DNA of 64,000 bases, taken from the NCBI RefSeq assembly GCF_017302985.1, contig NZ_JAFIMU010000010.1, positions 248,001 to 312,000 on the forward strand, in the 5' to 3' direction. How positions within the stretch are numbered: position 1 is the stretch's first letter; every line of letters starts with the position of its first letter. The DNA is from Corallococcus macrosporus (GTDB taxonomy: Bacteria; Myxococcota; Myxococcia; Myxococcales; Myxococcaceae). A program made the translations under genes and the position numbers. Below the pieces are notes generated by a model. That model was not told the origin of the DNA and ran no database searches. It worked only from the letters and a program-made list of their open reading frames with translations. Shown here piece by piece: positions 30,221-31,096 of the stretch.

Positions 30221-31096
30221 ATGCGCCTCCAGACCTTCGCCAGCGCCCTCGCCGCGACCCTGCTGCACTCCACCTCCGCCCTCGCCGCGCCGCCGCCTCT
30301 TCCGCAGCTGGAGGCCTATACCGTGGATGCGACCTGGCTCCAGCCCATGGAGCCTCTGCGCATCGCCGACCACACCTGGCAGATCGGCACCCAGGAGCTG
30401 ACCGCCCTGCTGGTGGAGACCCAGGACGGCCTCGTGCTGCTCGATGGCGGCATGCCCCAGATGGCCGACCATCTGCTGTCCAACCTGAAGCGCCGTGGCT
30501 TCGCGCCGCAGGACCTGCGCCTGCTGCTGAGCAGCCACGCACACGCCGACCACGCCGGCCCCTTCGCCGCGCTGAAGCGCCGCACCGGCGCGCGGGTCGT
30601 GGCCAGCGCCATGTCCGCGGTGATGCTGGCGCGTGGGGGCAGCGACGACCTGCACTTCGGTGACGACATCACCTTCCCGCCCGTCGTGGTGGACCGCGTG
30701 GTCATGGACGGCGAGGTCGTCTCGCAAGGCGGCGTCGAGTTCACCGCGCACTTCATGCCAGGGCATACGCCGGGCAGCATCGGCTGGACGTGGAACGACA
30801 CCCGGGACGGCAAGCCGGTACGCCTTGCCTACGCGGACAGCCTGACCGCGCCCGGCTATCAGCTGCTGGCCAACCCGCGTTATCCACGCATCGTCGAGGA
30901 CTACCGGCGCAGCTTCGCCACCGTGCGCGCCCTGCCCTGCGACGTGCTGCTGACCCCGCATCCGGGCTCGAGTGGCTGGAACTACGCAGCCGGAGCGGCG
31001 GCCGGCGCCAAGGCGATGAGCTGCATGGCCTACGCGGATGCCTCCGAGCGCGACTTCAACGCGCAACTGGCCAAGCAGCGCCGCAAGGCCCGTTGA
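30221..31096 (+). CDS. Subclass B3 metallo-beta-lactamase, L1-like
   Basis: A 291-residue periplasmic zinc beta-lactamase with signal peptide ending near TSALAA. The B3 zinc ligands are all present: H106-A-H108-A-D110-H111, H182 in FMPGHTPGS and H247 in TPHPGSSGW. Long stretches such as [25 protein letters not shown] and [18 protein letters not shown] match, from memory, the L1 enzyme of Stenotrophomonas maltophilia. B3 enzymes hydrolyse most beta-lactams including carbapenems. The gene follows the NtrC-type regulator by 12 nt with no clear ribosome-binding site, so co-transcription is possible. No integron or intact mobile element adjoins it. Confidence 0.93.

Follow-up and report, generated by a model that had tools for sequence, protein, structure and literature searches.

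In most descriptions, L1 is an intrinsic enzyme encoded on the Stenotrophomonas chromosome. In the window, by which we mean the whole 64,000 nt stretch of Corallococcus macrosporus DNA analyzed here, an open reading frame (ORF) with strong similarity to L1 lies directly behind the gene of an NtrC-type regulator. This raises the question of where the gene came from, how it reached its present place, and what this place means for its expression.

An L1-like subclass B3 metallo-beta-lactamase

The ORF (30221-31096, + strand) runs from ATG to TGA and encodes a complete protein of 291 aa with a putative signal peptide, as judged by eye. Structure and profile matches, alignment, and the tree described below assign the product to L1-like subclass B3 metallo-beta-lactamases. 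Alignment bears out the six zinc ligands recognized in the initial annotation, at H106, H108, D110, H111, H182, and H247 in ORF count, which we take to be H116, H118, D120, H121, H196, and H263 in B3 numbering. In this presumed numbering, the HxHxDH motif, H196, H263, and Ser221 of B3 enzymes are all present. It is the single close copy in its genome, where three other matches are partial (28-37%).

Comparison with solved structures returned L1 as the ten best chains (E 5.6e-143 to 1.4e-140), with 6uaf in the first place (478.5 bits, E 5.6e-143) and 1sml at E 1.1e-141; the next chain, a non-L1 beta-lactamase, follows at E 7.6e-54. Full-length identity to the 17 Stenotrophomonas copies found among the best 80 of 154 relatives is 69-74% (mean 72%), and the best tblastn segments between Stenotrophomonas and the window lactamase in the same set show 70-79% identity. 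The likeness to Stenotrophomonas L1, initially judged to exceed similarity of fold, is confirmed by this identity and by the ten L1 chains. The protein passes the NCBIfam B3 equivalog model (311.5 bits, cut-off 240) and stays just under the cut-off of the blaL1 model NF033106 (536 bits, cut-off 560), and is consequently called L1-like and not L1. PAM and POM belong to the same B3 family, but the 394.6 bits obtained with each of them are far under their cut-offs (615 and 610) and fall short of the blaL1 score by 141 bits.

L1 of Stenotrophomonas maltophilia (1sml, 6uaf) aligns with the window lactamase from end to end, including the six zinc ligands and both C-terminal cysteines. Among the seven substrate contacts given for L1 in an excerpt of PMC10148155, and with numbering mapped by us, Tyr33, Trp39, Phe160, Ile166, Ser221, and Pro227 are identical in the alignment, while Ser225 is replaced by Thr. 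Tyr33, Trp39, Ser221, and Pro227 are kept in all 13 myxobacterial copies, and the residue aligned with Ser225 is Gly in one copy of the genus group g19.

Based on sequence comparison, the window gene is a new member of a known enzyme family. A chance ORF is ruled out by 12 full-length copies in the bacterial family and by a median dN/dS of 0.23 over 78 pairs. The identity of 69-74%, the complete set of zinc ligands, and six of seven substrate contacts suggest a substrate range like that of L1. Most likely, the product is a periplasmic di-zinc B3 enzyme which hydrolyzes penicillins, cephalosporins, and carbapenems. A periplasmic carbapenemase would protect a predator that meets beta-lactam producers.

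Phylogenetic position and origin of the gene

A maximum-likelihood tree was constructed from 75 proteins: 58 of the best 80 of 154 relatives, 13 myxobacterial copies, and four distant myxobacterial proteins. L100, another distant myxobacterial protein, and 18 distant or partial relatives (L061, L065, and L069-L084) were left out. Four more relatives, L005, L006, L007, and L026, duplicate the records of G066, G002, G014, and G010, respectively, and were entered once. The record L005 (BNCN01000022.1) is named Comamonas sp. KCTC 72670; it matches G066, which is grouped in g19, and is probably mislabelled.

The alignment and tree, put forward as a check in the initial annotation, unite the 13 copies from Myxococcaceae into one clade (support 100/99). 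Within the best 80 of 154 relatives, its sister group is formed by the 17 Stenotrophomonas L1 rows, L008-L024 (100/98), and in a wide sense the window lactamase belongs to the L1 lineage. One further Stenotrophomonas row, L037, is placed outside the L1 clade. Luteimonas and Lysobacter rows in the same set branch below the myxobacterial/Stenotrophomonas pair, and the myxobacterial clade is thus nested among Lysobacteraceae genes. Of the origins initially proposed (an environmental relative or ancestor of L1, or a transferred gene), transfer is favored by the sister clade, the patchy distribution, the several sites, and a shared upstream box. An ancestor of L1 is not supported because of the nested position.

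An ordinary, vertically inherited myxobacterial B3 enzyme, named at the outset as the finding that would speak against the gene's special status, was rejected too. Distant B3 homologues do exist in other myxobacteria of the same family, but in the survey of 96 family genomes they share only 35-43% identity with the window lactamase. The four entered in the tree (L099 and L101-L103) all stand elsewhere, three of them grouping with Rhodanobacteraceae rows and the fourth joining an acidobacterial row on a long branch.

Base composition was compared at third codon positions. GC3 is 0.80-0.91 in the 13 myxobacterial lactamase copies, 0.82-0.84 in Stenotrophomonas copies, and 0.94-0.97 in the window genes for the histidine kinase, NtrC, the porin, and the second response regulator. 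The lactamase values lie between those of Stenotrophomonas copies and window genes, which fits entry into a very GC-rich host. Combining these data, transfer of an L1-like gene into Myxococcaceae is the favored reading; the tree topology alone may be compatible with passage from myxobacteria to the Stenotrophomonas maltophilia group. The ecology allows transfer from Stenotrophomonas to myxobacteria, since Corallococcus sp. EGB preys strongly on Stenotrophomonas nitritireducens, according to an excerpt of PMC12724311.

A promoter-like box shared with Stenotrophomonas

About 30 nt before the ATG of Stenotrophomonas L1, a box of the form GAAACG-N14/16-TGCTAG was observed. Exact GAAACG/TGCTAG pairs (spacer 9-19) occur six times in 1.83 million strand-bases of the loci L005-L077. 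All six are located directly before L1, in six of the 17 Stenotrophomonas loci. A loose search (up to 2 substitutions, spacer 13-17) found the box in all 17 Stenotrophomonas loci and in 7 of 13 myxobacterial copies, where it lies 29-33 nt before the ATG. All seven are among the eight g19 copies, and none of the five Corallococcus copies, the window lactamase among them, has the box. Elsewhere in these loci, the loose pattern gives 41 matches for the 13 myxobacterial ones (501,844 strand-bases) and 49 for the 17 of Stenotrophomonas (431,252 strand-bases).

Together, the tree and the shared box indicate that the box travelled into myxobacteria with the gene, and it may well represent a promoter. 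The upstream box is thus a feature that L1 has in common with other myxobacterial copies and not with the window gene, which differs from L1 also in its occurrence in another phylum, its accessory character, and its location at several sites in relatives.

Distribution, genomic sites, and broken copies

The L1-like gene or its remnants were detected in 16 of 96 family genomes: five of the own genus (g1, 5 of its 16 genomes), nine of g19, and two of g5. The remaining 80 gave no L1-like match. In 147 genomes of the class, one further match was obtained at E <= 1e-60, a 46% relative. Of the 16 carriers, 12 hold a full-length copy with all ligands, one (G010) has lost the last ligand, H263, by an in-frame deletion, and three (G029, G030, and G058) hold broken copies. 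Contamination was rejected, as the gene is present in the single-contig genomes G059, G060, G069, and G071.

Comparison of flanking DNA distinguished seven genomic sites of the gene or its remains: A (G000, which is the window genome, G001, and G014), B (G002 and G010), C (G059 and G066), D (G060, G069, G071, and G072), E (G057 and G058), F (G029 and G030), and G (G078). Inspection of sister genomes at the NtrC site, as initially suggested, revealed the gene in G001 and G014 and its absence there in 13 of the 16 genus genomes. Eleven of the 16 carriers belong to other genera and have the gene, or what is left of it, at a different place; the same is true of two carriers of the own genus.

When the window site is compared with full-length copies located elsewhere, the matching DNA corresponds to the ORF, beginning in most cases ~4 nt upstream of the ATG and ending at the stop. 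Up to ~200 nt of upstream sequence are shared by some pairs at sites other than that of the window. At site C, flanks which are ~0.2 kb apart in the sister genome G062 are separated by 3.7-4.5 kb with the gene in carriers. At sites D and G, only one flank could be matched in sisters, and no empty site was defined. The only small difference was found at site A, where G014 differs from G003 and G004 by ~1.0 kb (73+876+69 nt, counted by hand).

Selection and lateral movement

Lactamase dN/dS among the 13 copies (78 pairs) has a median of 0.234 and a range of 0.136-0.366, consistent with purifying selection that keeps the protein. At synonymous sites, lactamase genes of g1 and g19 differ from each other (dS 0.18-0.45, 40 pairs) no more than those within g19 do (0.20-0.58, 28 pairs), unlike in rpoB, where dS is 0.25-0.30 between g1 and g19 and 0.06-0.24 within g19, values that may be lowered by codon constraint. 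The site-B pair G002/G010 has a lactamase dS of 0.02 vs 0.30 for NtrC and 0.10 for rpoB. The histidine kinase is 70-73% identical between genera and was not used as a wider clock.

At site A, the ratios of lactamase to NtrC dS are 1.5 (G000/G001), 1.7 (G000/G014), and 1.4 (G001/G014); the row of G003 was excluded from this comparison. The lactamase diverges roughly in step with NtrC, and inheritance within site A looks vertical. The near relatives G004 and G012 carry no lactamase at this site. Because of its deletion, G010 was omitted from the DNA tree and the AU test, in which a single clade of the four remaining Corallococcus copies was not rejected (p-AU 0.09). In general, seven sites, broken copies, and divergence discordant with core genes show the L1-like gene to be an accessory gene which changes species and site and is frequently lost.

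Attachment sites of integrative elements

We have also addressed what follows the NtrC gene in genomes of the genus. Seven of them (G006-G011 and G015) share one common continuation, while in the others, carriers included, the continuation differs from the common one and mostly from each other. In G002, G003, and G004, the last 22-26 bases of tRNA-Asp are located 19-20 nt after the NtrC stop. In G002 this tRNA-Asp end is followed by a tyrosine integrase gene and, further on, by a phage capsid gene, although the lactamase of this genome resides at another site (B). Over 1,495 nt, the integrase region of G002 shows 95.7% identity with the corresponding region of a ~13.7-kb element at tRNA-Asp in G003. 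This element (L216:1731-15411) contains an integrase, a Prim-Pol/DUF927 primase, a DUF2381 protein, and two Ser/Thr kinases, and looks like a satellite-type island.

Degraded traces of the same type accompany the gene at site A. In G014, a 62-nt stretch beginning 30 nt after the lactamase stop matches the far end of the G003 element, together with the tRNA end, at 85% identity (E 9e-15 in a set of 30 short sequences, 2.9e-11 in a larger set). In G001, the same element end lies ~3.6 kb downstream of the lactamase (89%, 56 nt). The tRNA-Asp 3' fragment at this site is thus present in G002, G003, and G004 and degraded in G014 and G001; in the window, no such scar was found even when 3 mismatches were allowed. 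The two site-B genomes, G002 and G010, have a tmRNA 3' end ~85 nt away from the lactamase (E 6e-6 and 24 bits each, below the Rfam gathering score of 47).

A T-arm pattern scan of 16 loci gave 15 matches in 621,250 strand-bases, and only those of G014 and G010 lie within 110 nt of the gene. At sites other than A and B, no convincing tRNA or tmRNA end was detected within 1.5 kb, and site F has two distant T-arm matches. The search with tRNA and tmRNA models missed the G014 scar and is a weak test alone. Homologues of the G002 integrase were absent from the flanks of carriers, and no transposase was recognized among 30 Pfam-scanned proteins of the window and flanks.

A plasmid or virus carrying the gene was not found in the three collections searched: the lactamase query matched viral contigs only once (37% over 64 residues), while plasmid and phage collections gave matches of 39-42% only and no intact element with the gene. 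These attachment sites may be identical with those of the myxophages Mx8 and Mx9. For these phages, attB1 and attB2 are named in the available text of PMC6070905, where the word "tRNA" does not appear. Displaced 3' fragments of tRNA and tmRNA genes mark the ends of integrated islands (part of PMC4383910). With such islands, G002 and G003 share a tyrosine integrase and a 3'-end tRNA fragment as an end mark, differing in that no intact island with the lactamase was found. These features mark the position behind NtrC as an old attachment site of the phage type, used by elements targeting the tRNA-Asp 3' end. Integrative elements could have delivered the gene to sites A and B, or contributed to its arrival there.

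The junction with the NtrC operon

The regulator gene (28868-30208, + strand) encodes a protein in which domain search detected a receiver, a sigma-54 activator, and a Fis HTH domain. It is overlapped by 4 nt by the gene of a PAS-containing histidine kinase (26742-28871, + strand), also assigned by domain search. NtrC is present in all 16 genus genomes and the kinase in all 17 family genomes queried. The initially noted distance of 12 nt behind a sigma-54 activator gene is correct: the regulator ends at 30208, and 30209-30220 (+ strand) separates its stop from the lactamase ATG. An AGGA motif overlaps the NtrC stop 10 nt before this ATG, and the box is absent from the junction. The 12-nt gap is identical in length in the window (G000) and G001, which represent two species. 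In G014, at the same site, 88 nt with a box-like remnant separate the two genes, and at site B a boxless copy is located 19 nt behind an unrelated eCIS-like gene. Boxless copies are thus found close behind another gene at two sites.

No terminator-like site was found between NtrC and the lactamase, the three detected in 26300-31500 being all elsewhere. Same strand, short gap, and lack of an intervening terminator-like site fit an operon layout. A sigma-70 consensus scan of 26300-31500 found no match, with 0.1 expected by chance; at this high GC content the scan has little power and is uninformative. Located 12 nt behind a core gene and with its box gone, the window lactamase probably depends on the NtrC operon. 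Read-through from the kinase-regulator pair is the likely source of its expression, and co-transcription would be a plausible consequence of the missing promoter. The proposed link to a two-component system holds with respect to adjacency in the window and G001. It appears secondary, since NtrC is core, 13 of 16 genus genomes have no enzyme there, and 13 of 16 carriers hold the gene or its remains elsewhere.

Proposed history and alternative explanations

Taken as a whole, the following history has, in our estimate, a good probability of being correct. One entry, or a few from one donor lineage, would have brought the gene into Myxococcaceae from a member of Lysobacteraceae on the stem of Stenotrophomonas L1, and the promoter-like box would have come along with it. 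There it has become an accessory gene, passed among species and sites and frequently lost. In Corallococcus, it would have landed behind NtrC, at a place used by integrative elements of the tRNA-Asp 3' end, which may have served as its vehicle. Both the window and G001 lack the box, and their lactamase gene, 12 nt behind the kinase-NtrC pair, is probably read together with it.

Alternatively, an ancestor of Myxococcaceae already had the gene, which was then relocated and mostly lost with no transfer within the family. The single myxobacterial clade, the non-rejected monophyly of the four tested Corallococcus copies, and the divergence of site-A copies roughly in step with NtrC all agree with this. 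However, it must accommodate seven sites, 80 family genomes with no L1-like match, a lactamase dS between genera not exceeding that within g19, and the nearly identical G002/G010 copies (dS 0.02) beside an NtrC dS of 0.30, and we regard it as improbable. Drift of the protein to a non-lactamase role is very improbable. The Thr and Gly at the position of Ser225, the loss of H263 in one copy, and three genomes with only broken copies would point in that direction, but the zinc ligands are intact in 12 of 13 copies, four substrate contacts in all 13, and the median dN/dS is 0.23.

Two further explanations concern the vehicle and the role of the gene and bear on single steps of the preferred history. 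Phage or satellite elements that target tRNA-Asp or tmRNA could carry the lactamase as a passenger beside their attachment end, which we consider a real possibility, if somewhat short of an even chance. The element end 30 nt behind the lactamase in G014, its counterpart in G001, the tRNA-Asp end, integrase, and capsid genes behind NtrC in G002, and the tmRNA fragment at site B are in accord with it, although the fragments in G002 and G010 belong to one site and are not two independent cases. Against it, the collections searched yielded no intact element or virus that carries the gene, five sites are without tRNA or tmRNA ends, and use of the place by an element need not have involved the gene. 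The lactamase could also be a working part of the NtrC two-component system, induced for example by cell-wall damage or a prey signal. Spacing kept in two species, loss of the promoter-like box, and purifying selection on the reading frame throughout the clade would suit such a role. Nevertheless, the system lacks a lactamase in 13 of 16 genus genomes, G014 retains a longer spacer with a box-like remnant, and neighbors differ at other sites, including the eCIS-like gene before the boxless copy at site B, so this role is doubtful.

A wider scenario goes beyond the preferred history: predatory myxobacteria would maintain a circulating pool of L1-lineage carbapenemases acquired from xanthomonad prey, spread by phage-like elements at tRNA-Asp and tmRNA, and repeatedly rewired by promoter loss to a host gene, here a sigma-54 operon. 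We regard this wider scenario as rather unlikely; if true, a mobile reservoir of the L1 lineage exists beyond its home family. The occurrence of a sister clade in a different phylum, the L1 box, seven sites, and, in one genome, the position of the gene beside a phage-type attachment end suggest that the lineage moves in nature. Furthermore, some copies have the box, one retains a box-like remnant, and others lie boxless behind a host gene, a natural series for direct tests of promoter loss after transfer.

MYX-1 is a subclass B1 enzyme and so is not related to the window B3 enzyme at this level. According to a passage of PMC10740994, it is a metallo-beta-lactamase of Myxococcus xanthus, and thus named from a myxobacterium. 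Titles and abstract openings among the literature matches listed mention no L1-like enzyme in myxobacteria. The word "lactamase" is absent from the available main text of the Corallococcus pan-genome paper (PMC6306037) and from the available portion of a myxobacterial genomics review (PMC8538405), as are "Myxococc" and "Corallococc" from the corresponding portions of B3 reviews and letters (PMC7381538 and PMC10318434). Among the matches listed, new to us is the L1 sister clade across the phylum border, with its box carried along, at seven sites, often lost, and here boxless behind a sigma-54 regulator gene.

The accessory stretch downstream of the lactamase

Between the lactamase and a porin gene (39474-40769), an accessory stretch (31097-39475) differs between sisters. 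Its contents include a subtilase, a TsiV-type immunity protein, a Big_2 protein, and repeats. Of the stretches compared, those of G001, G003, G004, and G014 gave a match to the porin region. A small ORF for a putative lipoprotein ending in CDCGYW (31187-31396) has no Pfam match. The segment 35098-36848 encodes a TsiV-type type VI immunity protein (E 3.7e-59) behind a 280-aa ORF with no assigned family. In G014, Tse3-like and Tsi3-like ORFs are located directly downstream of the lactamase (L107:7774-9454). With TsiV in the window, they make this place look like a toxin/immunity hotspot.

Two segments of ~410 nt each, 31492-31900 and 36864-37271, are 86% identical. The latter covers the start of the Big_2 gene (37020-39464), and the former looks like its detached partial copy. 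Inside the subtilase-type ORF (32201-34717), ~570 nt are repeated with an offset of ~305 nt (33836-34705, 82%). Beyond the porin gene, a second pair of NtrC-type regulator and histidine kinase genes occupies 40824-43818 on the opposite strand. Its regulator DNA is ~69% like the first over 0.7 kb, and the two regulator genes are oriented tail to tail with the accessory stretch between them.
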